The notes under the pieces are model-generated. The model worked only from the letters and a program-made list of their open reading frames with translations. It was not told the DNA's origin and searched no databases. Made by a program: the position numbers and the translations under genes. 32,835 nucleotides of DNA from positions 1-32,835 of the forward strand of contig JAJYDN010000024.1 of NCBI GenBank assembly GCA_021777535.1, read 5' to 3'. This document shows positions 6,013 to 32,835 of this stretch, one piece after another. How positions within the stretch are numbered: position 1 is the stretch's first letter; every line of letters begins with the position of its first letter. The stretch comes from Pseudomonadota bacterium (GTDB lineage: Bacteria; Pseudomonadota; Gammaproteobacteria; Acidiferrobacterales; Acidiferrobacteraceae).

Positions 6013-7146
6013 CTATGGCCGGTAGCCCTGGGCGGCCAGCGCCGCGCGCAGGCCATCGAGACAAAGGGCGACATTGCGGCGGTTGCTGCCCTGCCCCATC
6101 AATCCGATACGCCAGATCTTGCCCGCCAGCTCACCGAGCCCCGCGCCGATCTCGATGCCAAACCGCTCGAGCAGGTCGGCACGGACGCGTGCCTCATCGA
6201 TGCCGGCCGGAACCAGCACGCTGTTTAGCTGGGGCAAACGGATGGCCGCCGGCACCGCCATCTCCAGCCCAAGACCCGCGAGGCCGGCAACGAGCTCTTC
6301 GTGATTTTGGCGATGGCGCGCAAACGAGCCCTCCAGACCCTCTTCCTGCAGCATGACGAGGGCCTCGTGCAGGGCGTACAGGAGATTGACCGGGGCCGTA
6401 TGGTGATAGGTCCGCTTGCCCGTCCCCCAATAGCTCATGAGCAGACTCAGATCCAGAAACCACGTATGCGGCTTCCCGCGCCGCCCCTTCACCTTTTCGA
6501 GCGCACGCTCGTTTAGCGTAAGAGGCGAAAGCCCGGGCGGACACGACAGGCATTTTTGCGTGCCGGCATACACCGCATCGAGCCCCCAGGCGTCGGTCTC
6601 CACGGGCACGCCGCCGATCGCGGTCACGGTATCCGCGAGCACCAGCGCACCGGCGCGATGCGCCACATCGGCTATCGCCTGCGCATCCGACAGCACACCG
6701 GTGGAGGTTTCGGCGTGAACGAAGGCCACGAGCTTCGTGTCCGGATTCTTGCGCAGCGCATCCGCGAGCCTGTCGGGATCGACGGCTTCGCCAAACGCAT
6801 TGTCGACCAGCACGGCCGTGCCGCCGACCCGGCCGACGATATCCGCCATCCGCGCCCCGAACACGCCATTACGGCAAACGACGACCTTGTCGCCGGGCTC
6901 CACCAGATTGGCAAGCGACGCTTCCATGCCGGCGGATCCCGGGGCCGAGATCGGCAATGTCACGTTGTTGCGCGTCCTGAAGACGTACTGCAATGACGCC
7001 TTCACTTCCTCCATCATGCCAACAAAGGCGGGATCGAGATGACCGATGGTCGGCTGGGCCATGGCAAGCAACACGCGCGGCGGTACGTCCGAGGGGCCGG
7101 GGCCCAGCAGAACGCGCGGCGGGGGCGTAAAGCGGGATGTCTTCAT
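6013..7146 (-). CDS. Class V aminotransferase, serine/alanine-glyoxylate type
   Basis: PLP-dependent enzyme of the class V (AGXT-like) family that moves an amino group from serine or alanine to glyoxylate, forming glycine. The 377-residue sequence opens with the family phrase [14 protein letters not shown] and contains [17 protein letters not shown] near the PLP phosphate site. [20 protein letters not shown] includes the cofactor aspartate, and [14 protein letters not shown] includes the Schiff-base lysine. Glycolate oxidase, which makes glyoxylate, is encoded just to the right. The pair therefore suggests a glycolate-to-glycine salvage route. Substrate (serine versus alanine) cannot be fixed from sequence alone. 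The ribosome binding site is weak. Confidence 0.88.
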
Positions 7147-12128: not shown

Positions 12129-12189
12129 CTCGTCGTCAGCAACCTGACGGACGGTCGACTCTTTTATTCTCATGAAAGGACACATGACG

Positions 12190-12396
12190 ATGCGAACGGG
12201 AACGGTAAAGTGGTTCAACGAGGCCAAGGGATTCGGATTCATCGCGCCGCAAGACGGCAGCCCCGATGTGTTTGTCCACTACTCGGCAATCCAGGGTGAA
12301 GGGTTCCGCAACCTCACCGAAGGACAGATGGTCGAGTTCGAGAGCACGCGCGGCCAGAAGGGGATGCAGGCCACTCACGTCCGTCCGGCACGCTAG
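12190..12396 (+). CDS. Cold-shock protein of the CspA family
   Basis: Small single-strand RNA/DNA-binding protein with one cold-shock domain, acting as an RNA chaperone. RNP1 (KGFGFI) and RNP2 (VFVHYSAI) are intact, and [17 protein letters not shown] matches family starts. The ATG at 12190 gives 68 residues and has AAAGGA nine bases upstream. ATGs at 12184 and 12172 are alternatives but sit too close to, or before, this site. The gene is single, followed by a hairpin shared with the converging FKBP gene. Confidence 0.93.
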
Positions 12397-12414
12397 CCCA
12401 GACGACGCATCGCA

Positions 12415-12445
12415 AAGGAAAACAGGGAGCCTTCCGGCTCCCTGT
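12415..12445 (-). terminator. Intrinsic terminator of the FKBP gene, in the convergent gap
   Basis: A perfect 10-bp stem ACAGGGAGCC (12422-12431) / GGCTCCCTGT (12436-12445) with loop TTCC. On the minus strand the stem is followed by TTTCC, so it best serves the FKBP gene ending at 12461. On the plus strand it could slow cspA transcripts but has no T run there. Confidence 0.8.
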
Positions 12446-12460
12446 CGCTTGTCGGAGGAC

Positions 12461-29993: not shown

Positions 29994-30335
29994 TTAGGCT
30001 GGGTGGCTGCCGGGCGGCGCATGGTCGTCGCAAGCTATCGAATACCGGTGTTGCAGTACCCGCAGGCGGCCCGGGGCACCGCAGGTCTCGCACACGGTGC
30101 CGGACTCGGCGCCCGCCTCCTCAATGAGCGCGTCCATCGCCTCGTTCAGGTGATCGCCATACCAACGCAAACGGGCAAACTTGCTCTTCACCTGGGTCGC
30201 GCAAGGATGGTCGTGCGCGCCAAGTTGGAGGCCTGCTGCCCGGGCTTGGGCGTCCAGCCGCTCCGACAACTGCCACAGGAGAACGAACCAGCCATCACCG
30301 CACTCAAACCCGAAAGGAAGTTTCCGACGGTACAA
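29994..30335 (-). pseudogene. Phage-type hypothetical protein, probably 5'-truncated
   Basis: The frame codes a small protein with the sequence pattern PFGFECGDGWFVLLWQLSERL, then QVKSKFARLRWYGD, and a zinc-knuckle-like end CETCGAPGRLR...ACDDHA. I associate this layout with hypothetical proteins in phages and genomic islands; function is unknown. The only start codon available is a TTG at 30335, but the same frame stays open and family-like upstream (RLHEAFPAL), without an ATG or GTG before a stop near 30410. The real N-terminus therefore seems lost. The neighbouring IS66 remnant fits a decayed island. Confidence 0.5.
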
Positions 30336-30542
30336 CGCCGGGAAGGCCTCGTGCAGGCGGCATTCGTGATCTGCGTTCGTATGCTCTGTTTGGCCTACGG
30401 TGTTGACCAGTTATTGGTAAGGAGGTATCCGCTCCATAAACCCCACCCTCCCCACAGTGGCTTTGGATCTGTAGTCTTTTTCTTCGGAAGGGCGGCGAGA
30501 TCAGGGCAGACGGGGCGATACAGCGGGATGGCAGACGGGCGT

Positions 30543-30770
30543 TTAAGCGGCGGACCGGCGAAGCGTCGGATCGGAGGCAAGGTTCATGGACAGCAAGGCC
30601 TCGAGGTCGTCGATGGTCTGGGCCTTGGGGAGATCGGTAAAGATCTTTCGCAGGTAATGGTAGGGCTCGAGGCCATTGGCCTTACAGGTCTCGATCAGGC
30701 TATAGAGATTGGCCGAGGCCTTCACGCCACCGACACTGTCTGTGAAAAGCCAGTTGCGCCGTTTATGCAA
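30543..30770 (-). pseudogene. IS66-family transposase, C-terminal remnant
   Basis: The 75-codon frame reads KRRNWLFTDSVGGVKASANLY, then SLIETCKANGLEPYHYLRKI and FTDLPKAQTIDDLEALL. This is the C-terminal domain of IS66-type DDE transposases (TnpC), normally the last part of a protein of about 500 residues. Everything upstream, including the DDE core, is missing. The break coincides with a 32-bp perfect palindrome (30757-30788), whose left arm is IS66 sequence. Terminal repeats of the element were not identified. Confidence 0.9.
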
Positions 30771-30788
30771 AGCTTTGCATAAACGGCG
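30757..30788. repeat. 32-bp perfect palindrome at the IS66 break point
   Basis: CGCCGTTTATGCAAAG joined to its exact reverse complement CTTTGCATAAACGGCG, with AAGCTT at the centre and no spacer. The left arm includes codons of the IS66 transposase remnant. The symmetry ends abruptly on both sides. Confidence 0.95.
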
Positions 30789-30936
30789 TTATGCACGGTT
30801 CATTATTAGGTACGGTTTGCGTTCAGTTACCCCCAAGGTCCCCGGTTTCCCAAGGATCGCGGCGCGCATCGTTATTTTCCACCTGACATAAAAATGGTGT
30901 TTCCTGGGGATCTTGGACCCCCACCAGGAGAACATC

Positions 30937-32178
30937 ATGTCAAGAGATTCCTATTTGGCAACACCCTCGGGCCTGCGACTGACCGCAGGTCCACTCCGCG
31001 GTATCGTGACCCCCTACATCGAGACCCTGCGCGTCGGGCGCTATGCGGCGCGCACCGTCCAGATATATCTAGACTGCCTGGCCCGATTCGGCGATTGGAT
31101 GGCGGTCGAAGGGATTGCTGCGTCATGCATTGATAGACCACTCATCGAGCGCTTCCTGGACCGGTTGGTTTCGCCTCCTTCCGGTTCGGCGCATCGGAGC
31201 GCGGTGGCCAACGCGCAGGCGGCGCTTAGGCATATGCTTTTGCTGCTACCGCGCACCGGGACCACAGCGACCGCCGATCCGCTGACGGCCGAACTCGCTG
31301 GGTTTGACGCCTATCTCGCGGATGTCTGCGGGCTTGCGGAGGCCACACGTGGTGAGCGGTCTCGGCATGTGGGCGCCTTCCTCGGCCAGGTGTTTGGCGC
31401 CCACGCCCCGGTCACCGCCCAGATTTCCGCAAGGCACGTGGAGGCATTCATCGTCGGATTGAGTGCGCGTTGGCGCCCCAGCGCACTGCGGGTCGTCTGC
31501 GGGAGCCTGCGCAGCTACTTCCGGTACCGGGCCTTGCTCGGGGAGTCCACGGCGGCCTTGTCGGCGGCCCTCCCCAGGATCGCGGACTGGCGGGACGCGA
31601 ACTTACCCAAGGTGCTTTCGGACCATGAGTTGGACGCCTTCTTGCAAGCCTTCGATCGCTCAGACCCCGTTGGACGACGCGATTACGCGATCGCCCGCTG
31701 CCTGATCGATCTCGGTCTGCGCGGCCATGAGGTGACCTATCTCACGCTGGAGTCGGTGGACTGGCGCGCCGCCACACTCGCGATCCGAAACCCCAAGAGC
31801 CGACGTGTGCAGAGGCTGCCGCTGGCCGCCTCAACAGGCGAGGCTATCGCGCACTATCTGCGCCAGGGGCGGCCCCAGACCGTAAACCGCGCCCTATTCG
31901 TGCGGCACCGCGCCCCCTTCGACACGCCGCTTGGCGTGCCGGCCATCCGCAATGCGATGAACCGCGCCTTCGTGCGCTGCGGACTGCGCGATCGCTTCTG
32001 CAACACCCACGTCCTGCGACGGACCGTGGCCACCCGATTGCAGTGCGCGGGGGCCTCGATCAAGGAAATCGCCGATCTCTTGCGCCACCAGAGCCTGGAC
32101 ACGGCCCGTTCCTACGTCCGCGTCGACATTGAGACCTTGCGCGCGGTCGCTCTTCCGTGGCCCGGGAGTCTGTCATGA
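30937..32178 (+). CDS. Tyrosine recombinase, first of a tandem set (RIT-like)
   Basis: A 413-residue site-specific recombinase with an N-terminal SAM-like DNA-binding part (about 25-195) and a C-terminal catalytic domain. The catalytic residues are all visible: R262 (LGLRGHEVTYL), K287 (NPKSRRVQRL), H358 and R361 (THVLRRTVATRL), H384 (LLRHQSLD) and nucleophile Y393 (SYVRVD). AGGAG seven bases before the ATG at 30937 decides the start over an upstream in-frame option at 30913. Its stop overlaps the ATG of a second recombinase (ATGA). Overlapping recombinase genes in one direction are the mark of recombinase-in-trio (RIT) elements. The active site looks functional. Confidence 0.92.
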   Translation: MSRDSYLATPSGLRLTAGPLRGIVTPYIETLRVGRYAARTVQIYLDCLARFGDWMAVEGIAASCIDRPLIERFLDRLVSPPSGSAHRSAVANAQAALRHMLLLLPRTGTTATADPLTAELAGFDAYLADVCGLAEATRGERSRHVGAFLGQVFGAHAPVTAQISARHVEAFIVGLSARWRPSALRVVCGSLRSYFRYRALLGESTAALSAALPRIADWRDANLPKVLSDHELDAFLQAFDRSDPVGRRDYAIARCLIDLGLRGHEVTYLTLESVDWRAATLAIRNPKSRRVQRLPLAASTGEAIAHYLRQGRPQTVNRALFVRHRAPFDTPLGVPAIRNAMNRAFVRCGLRDRFCNTHVLRRTVATRLQCAGASIKEIADLLRHQSLDTARSYVRVDIETLRAVALPWPGSLS

Positions 32179-32705
32179 GGGCCCCGGCTTCGTGGCAGAC
32201 GCGGGTCGCGGCGTACCTGGCGTACCGGCGCGCCCACGGTTTCGTGCTCGTTATCGCAGACAGTCAGCTGCGGGCGTTTGCCCGCTTCGCCGACACCCAG
32301 GGTCCGGCCGAACATCTGACGGTGGCGCTCGCCGCGGCCTGGGCCCGAACGGCGCGCCGGCCCCATCCGCTGACCTTGGCGCGTCGCATGGAAGTGCTGC
32401 GCGGCTTCGCCCACTACTGCCGGCGCCTGGATCCGGCAACCGAGATCCCTCCGCGGAATCTCTTCGGCTCCGCCCATCGGCGTCTGGTGCCGCATATCTT
32501 CACGGAAGGGGAGCTCATCGCGCTACTTGAAGCGACCGAGACCCTGGTTCCCCGGGGCGGATTGCGCCCGGCGACCTGTCGATGCGTCTTGGGGCTGCTC
32601 GCCGCAAGCGGGCTGCGCATCTCCGAGGCGCTCGCGCTCTCCTGCGCCGACGTTGACTTGAAGACCGGTGTGCTCTCGATTCGCGCCGGCAAGTTCCAGA
32701 AGTAG
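32175..32705 (+). pseudogene. Second tyrosine recombinase, interrupted by a group II intron
   Basis: The frame starts with an ATG overlapping the upstream stop and codes an N-terminal DNA-binding domain (LAYRRAHGFVLVIADSQLRAF to FAHYCRRLDPATEI). The first half of a catalytic domain follows, including the first catalytic Arg in LLAASGLRISEALAL. It stops after RAGKFQK at a TAG that lies on the boundary with intron sequence, before the remaining catalytic residues. A complete protein of this type is normally over 300 residues, so 176 residues is a truncation. The rest of the gene would lie beyond the intron, outside the window. Confidence 0.85.
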
Positions 32706-32744
32706 TCGCGGTAGGGATGCCGATCACTCGGCACCCCCCGCACA

Positions 32745-32777
32745 GATCCGGACAGGCGCTGCTAACGCATCCGGCTC
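32745..32777 (-). ncRNA. Group II intron domain V-like segment
   Basis: GAGCCGGA and TCCGGATC form the lower stem, and GCG/CGC the upper one. The AGC catalytic triad is in place near the 5' end. The segment starts at the base after the RT stop codon. Confidence 0.6.
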
Positions 32778-32835
32778 CTACCTTGAGTATTTGGCGTCAA
32801 AGCGTTTGTAGGGATAAGGATGCACAATCCTAGCC
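32778..32835 (-). CDS. Group II intron reverse transcriptase/maturase, last 18 residues
   Basis: The frame enters from the right edge and ends ARIVHPYPYKRFDAKYSR then TAG at 32780-32778, immediately before the domain V-like segment. The short tail (HPYP..RFDA.YSR) resembles C-termini of bacterial intron reverse transcriptases. The call rests mainly on its position ahead of domains V and VI, because no RT motif lies inside the window. Confidence 0.6.
   Translation of the reverse strand, partial: ARIVHPYPYKRFDAKYSR

Follow-up and report, generated by a model that had tools for sequence, protein, structure and literature searches.

The window analysed here is a whole contig of 32,835 nt (contig 13 of a 2.3-Mb draft assembly in 76 contigs), and shortly before its end at position 32835 the second of two tyrosine recombinase genes breaks off. 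We asked what breaks this gene, whether it might simply end there, and what the break would mean for the element to which the gene belongs. The original prediction had placed the 3′ part of a group II intron, antisense to the recombinase gene, directly after its residue 176. The features that we assign to this region are collected in Table 1.

Table 1. Assigned features at the right-hand end of the window
Feature	Position	Strand	Evidence
C-terminal remnant of an IS66 transposase that hosts the RIT element	30546–30770	−	Pfam PF13817, E 5e-16
32-nt perfect palindrome where IS66 and RIT meet; probable RIT end	30757–30788	.	Position beside ritA compared with L057
ritA, intact tyrosine recombinase	30937–32178	+	PF00589, E 1.1e-20; DNA match to the L057 trio
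ritB 5′ part, 176 codons; junction-made stop TAG at 32703–32705	32175–32705	+	
Group II intron 3′ end, truncated where the contig stops	32705–32835	−	
Intron-encoded RT, C-terminal 18 codons and stop	32778–32834	−	Translation compared with the RT of L034, L035 and L037
Domain V; triad AGC, G opposite A	32744–32778	−	
Domain VI; bulged A at 32712, 7 nt ahead of the intron end	32707–32742	−	
3′ splice end, last intron base; intron ending ..GAC	32705	−	

The broken recombinase gene and its host element

The broken gene comprises 176 codons counted from the ATG at 32175 (182 from an upstream GTG start), as first described, and closes with a TAG of which the TA comes from the host and the G from the intron. 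Its 176 amino acids match the XerC/XerD families up to mid-profile only. An uninterrupted recombinase trio is present in a same-family genome, on contig 20 of G011 (locus L057), which is apparently JAKBUS010000082.1 (100% identical over ritB). BLASTN of window positions 30201–32835 against this trio returned a single alignment at 78% identity that ends exactly at 32702, and the RitB homologue of L057 (81% identical at the amino acid level) reads on past the break (GKFQK-PRLVPLH...) to 315 aa. The same trio is annotated, again uninterrupted, in Marinobacter and Roseibium plasmids. Further, among 60 homologous loci retrieved from genome contigs, ritB forms one uninterrupted match of >285 aa in 50, and because of these 50 loci we conclude that the gene, judged by its homologues, does not normally end at the break seen in the window. 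The other 10 loci are broken or partial in different ways, and the window's intron was found in the ritB of none of the 60. The truncated RitB is without the HDHRH (HxxR) region, the GHA motif and the C-terminal Tyr (homologue positions 248, 281 onward); the HxxR residues, the His of GHA and this Tyr are what we take to be the active-site residues of the recombinase.

The tyrosine recombinase gene of the original prediction can be specified as ritB of a RIT (recombinase-in-trio) element that itself lies inside an IS66 transposase gene. RIT elements are defined by three overlapping tyrosine recombinase genes, ritA-ritB-ritC, and a palindrome flanking ritA/ritC is known for them (PMC3414803). 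The window shows ritA and the start of ritB, all three genes being present in the homologous trio of L057, and a palindrome at 30757–30788 near ritA at the one RIT end that the window reaches. The window shares with RIT elements the neighbouring tyrosine recombinase genes, a 4-bp overlap (here ATGA, the ritA TGA with the ritB start), the palindrome by ritA and the insertion into a transposase gene; it differs in that ritB is interrupted and ritC would lie beyond the contig (PMC3414803).

Several observations on related loci were made alongside. The RIT elements of the window (30546–30788) and of L057 sit at about the same codon of the IS66 transposase, in opposite orientation relative to the IS66 gene. 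L057 and L064 each contain two RIT trios tail to tail, with their ritC ends meeting or overlapping. In L117, ritB is broken two residues before the window site, near a contig end, by an unrelated inverted-repeat sequence (6522–6630), and L086 (631–4539) holds a broken ritB in two pieces ∼2.96 kb apart. RT-like matches with ∼30–36% identity to the RT of the window's intron occur at L084 8427–9365 and L110 11836–12270, each in one fetched stretch with a ritB gene that stays uninterrupted.

The 3′ end of a group II intron

On the minus strand, from 32835 to 32705, the sequence reads as the C terminus of an RT with its stop codon, domain V and domain VI, followed by host sequence. The RT tail (32834–32778, minus strand), ARIVHPYPYKRFDAKYSR and a stop, matches the C terminus of the RT of full-length introns. 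This intron stretch is matched in 11 of 18 same-family genomes, the window's own included, at identities of up to 98%, and by 4187 records of the plasmid collection, the plasmid relatives being distant ones. With the window's own match excluded, 16 of 26 same-family matches start exactly at 32705 (query position 16) and 21 of 26 at query positions 13–17; among the best 20 of the 4187 plasmid records, the end lies at 32705 itself in 14 and no more than 2 nt from it in 19. The 3′ splice end, which the original prediction had put at the gene break, can be placed to the base, at 32705, by this end shared among relatives, and the host-side (32702) and intron-side (32705) boundaries agree within 2 nt.

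A covariance-model search for domain V, which had been proposed as a check, yielded a match to Rfam RF00029 at 32705–32779 (minus strand) with 34.5 bits, short of the gathering score (40 bits); its E value was 0.0025 when the whole window was searched and 1.8e-5 when the search was confined to the last 236 bases. Taken by itself this match would be weak evidence, whereas the homology to introns in other genomes is strong. Compared with dinucleotide shuffles, the fold of domains V and VI gave a z of −3.7. We then aligned the domain V of the window (32744–32778) with those of L013, L014, L034, L036, L038, L127, L139, L140 and L147–L150, the 13 members having been hand-picked from domain V pattern matches. 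In this alignment 46 cells carried changes in both partners of a pair, where the shuffles averaged 13.7; of five measures of the structure, four exceeded every one of 500 shuffles and the remaining one exceeded 471 of them, and changes on both sides were seen at 13 pairs besides the middle of the triad. A chance match to domain V was ruled out by this covariation together with the 3′ end shared by relatives and plasmids.

Domain V shows an AGC triad and a bulge, domain VI a bulged A and an AY 3′ end, and of the RT the window holds the last 18 codons and the stop, the complete protein being encoded in L034, L035 and L037. The RT tail, domain V, the bulged-A domain VI and the AY 3′ end are common to D1D4-6 group II introns (RF02005, RF00029), from which the window differs in that 131 nt are visible, in the G opposite A of its triad, and in an RF00029 score below gathering. 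Homology in same-family genomes and plasmids, RF00029 and covariation all argue for the reading first proposed, and we read minus-strand positions 32835–32705 as the final 131 nt of a group II intron whose 3′ splice end is base 32705.

The contig stops inside this intron. Searches of the window's own assembly found no RT, no intron 5′ end, no second copy of the window's intron, no remainder of ritB and no ritC. The simplest reason for this gap would be further copies of the intron in the sample, at which the assembly broke; the remainder of the intron, of ritB and of ritC would then lie past the contig end. The 3′ end of a second, different group II intron was seen in the same assembly at the edge of another contig (G000:C74:11–100; L010, L012; 45.5 bits), and its domain V has the usual G-U. 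Elsewhere in the window, positions 12131–12450 gave a weak match to the cspA thermoregulator (23.5 bits, against a gathering score of 78).

Full-length relatives and the domain V triad

Full-length copies were found in genomes G001 (two at different sites, without a single difference over 1935 nt) and G014, and two Rhizobium copies, also at different sites, share 99.95% identity over 1932 nt. Such near-identity between copies at separate sites suggests that this intron lineage moves. The full-length relatives carry RF02005 (D1D4-6) at 167–172 bits and an RT; the RT of the G001 copy contains PF00078, and a Pfam search of it found no endonuclease domain. Their 5′ ends are GTACG or GTGCG, that is, GUGYG-like. 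In the G001 and G014 copies GTACGCC is preceded by TGGAGCGC(T/A)TA, and with a Rhizobium relative as the query, 37 of the 60 plasmid matches listed start at the position of GTGCGCC (query 58–64). An 11-nt 5′ extension before GTACG in G001 and G014 was considered as part of the intron; the plasmid starts at the GTGCG position favour an exon motif. Most likely, the intron proper starts at GTGCG/GTACG and the bases upstream are a 5′ exon target motif, which gives a length of about 1923 nt (∼1.92 kb in the relatives).

The first base of the 3′ exon is T in the window and C in nine of nine same-family copies (one artefactual junction omitted), and because of this T the window's insertion may occupy an off-consensus site. 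Among the same-family 3′ flanks, compared for open frames only, the window offers the clear example of a long known gene with an insertion in it, and these flanks allow no claim of a preference for antisense orientation or for recombinases. One G001 locus (L035, 5255–7424) consists of the first 118 nt of the intron, a full 1934-nt copy and the last 118 nt of the intron, all identical. A nested intron ('twintron') was set aside for this locus as a likely artefact, because contigs joined with their overlaps uncollapsed give exactly such an arrangement. In G014, a HEARO RNA (RF02033, 100 bits; L039 6312–6501), cut by the locus end, lies ∼4 kb from an intron copy.

Domain V had been called non-canonical in the original prediction. 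The departure stands, at the middle of the triad, and it is the norm of the lineage instead of a defect: in all 13 aligned sequences the G in the middle of AGC faces an A, where the usual partner is U. Across the loci, 30 distinct pattern matches have an A opposite in 29 and a T in one, in a set that is biased, most loci having been fetched by similarity to the window's intron; one of the 29 with A (L083) was on inspection not an intron. RF00029 scored at least 40 bits in one of seven lineage rows of one scan, with the other six below, and in 8 of 12 rows at lineage domain V positions of another scan (an off-position L130 row omitted). These scores lie near or under the Rfam threshold because the lineage's triad has G opposite A, and as most close copies fall just under the gathering threshold, a default scan would miss them.

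We rejected decay as an explanation for the odd domain V, G opposite A being common to the lineage, including recently moved copies. Because copies with this pair are 100% (G001) or 99.95% (Rhizobium) identical at different sites, we regard G opposite A as a lineage trait that appears compatible with mobility. We put forward only tentatively, and with some doubt, the wider proposal that an alpha-/gammaproteobacterial lineage works with a G-A triad and is still mobile, such that the triad would tolerate this pairing.

Insertion into ritB and its probable consequences

Taken together, the results make us highly confident that an RT-bearing mobile group II intron was retro-inserted into the non-coding strand of ritB in an IS66-borne RIT element. 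An intron with its own RT, of the D1D4-6 type and ∼1.92 kb if like its relatives, would have entered this strand through reverse splicing with reverse transcription, and the DNA strand into which an intron reverse-splices determines its orientation.

The visible part might instead belong to a 5′-truncated fragment, left by incomplete reverse transcription or by a later deletion, with the remainder of ritB either coming directly after it or lost. Truncated copies are described as common in bacteria (PMC4424553, PMC4028801), in several same-family copies the alignment covers only a portion of the full length, and the intron 5′ end was not found in the window's own assembly. However, the contig breaks off after 131 nt of intron, as drafts do at repeats present elsewhere in the sample; G011:C16 also holds an intron copy within 280 nt of a contig end, and the artefact in G001 shows 118-nt intron overhangs. 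We consider a fragment rather unlikely.

It is far less probable that the junction of ritB and intron exists in the assembly alone, as a chimera. The junction does lie 131 nt from the end of a draft contig, and a related genome has a probable contig-joining artefact at the same intron, but the junction falls exactly at the true 3′ end of the intron, which was set independently by relatives and would rarely be hit by a random chimera, and the window's own assembly yielded no other copy of the intron. Two stable hairpins after the ritB stop codon could also suggest a recombinase family that naturally ends here, with the hairpins as its terminator. To this we give practically no credence, given that 50 of the 60 homologues run past the break in one piece and that the same hairpins stand behind RT genes in otherwise unrelated surroundings and show covariation as domains V and VI. 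Against the insertion of a mobile intron, which we prefer, it counts that the broken ritB of L117 shows this stretch of the gene to be breakable in other ways. The RF00029 score under gathering, the T as first base of the 3′ exon, and the failure to find the 5′ end, most of the RT and the other ritB exon in the window's own assembly count against it as well.

As the intron lies antisense to ritB, the ritB transcript contains it only in complement, a form that cannot be spliced out, and RitB stops after 176 codons without HxxR, His and Tyr. Loss of RitB function is thus strongly indicated by the sequence. The RIT element as a whole would probably be immobile unless a RIT elsewhere helps, a conclusion that we hold less firmly because the literature read does not settle what RitA, RitB and RitC each do.

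Bacterial group II introns are mostly mobile elements that often lie amid other mobile DNA (PMC4424553). The titles and abstract openings found held no group II intron in a RIT element and no G-A pair in the triad, both weak negatives with most subscription journals outside the coverage. The window provides a real but ordinary case of mobile DNA landing in mobile DNA, a kind of event that is already known. It documents a retroelement that would disable one gene of a three-recombinase transposon, and it corrects the idea that the odd domain V reflects decay; the lineage-wide G-A at the catalytic triad poses a small, testable question about the ribozyme core.
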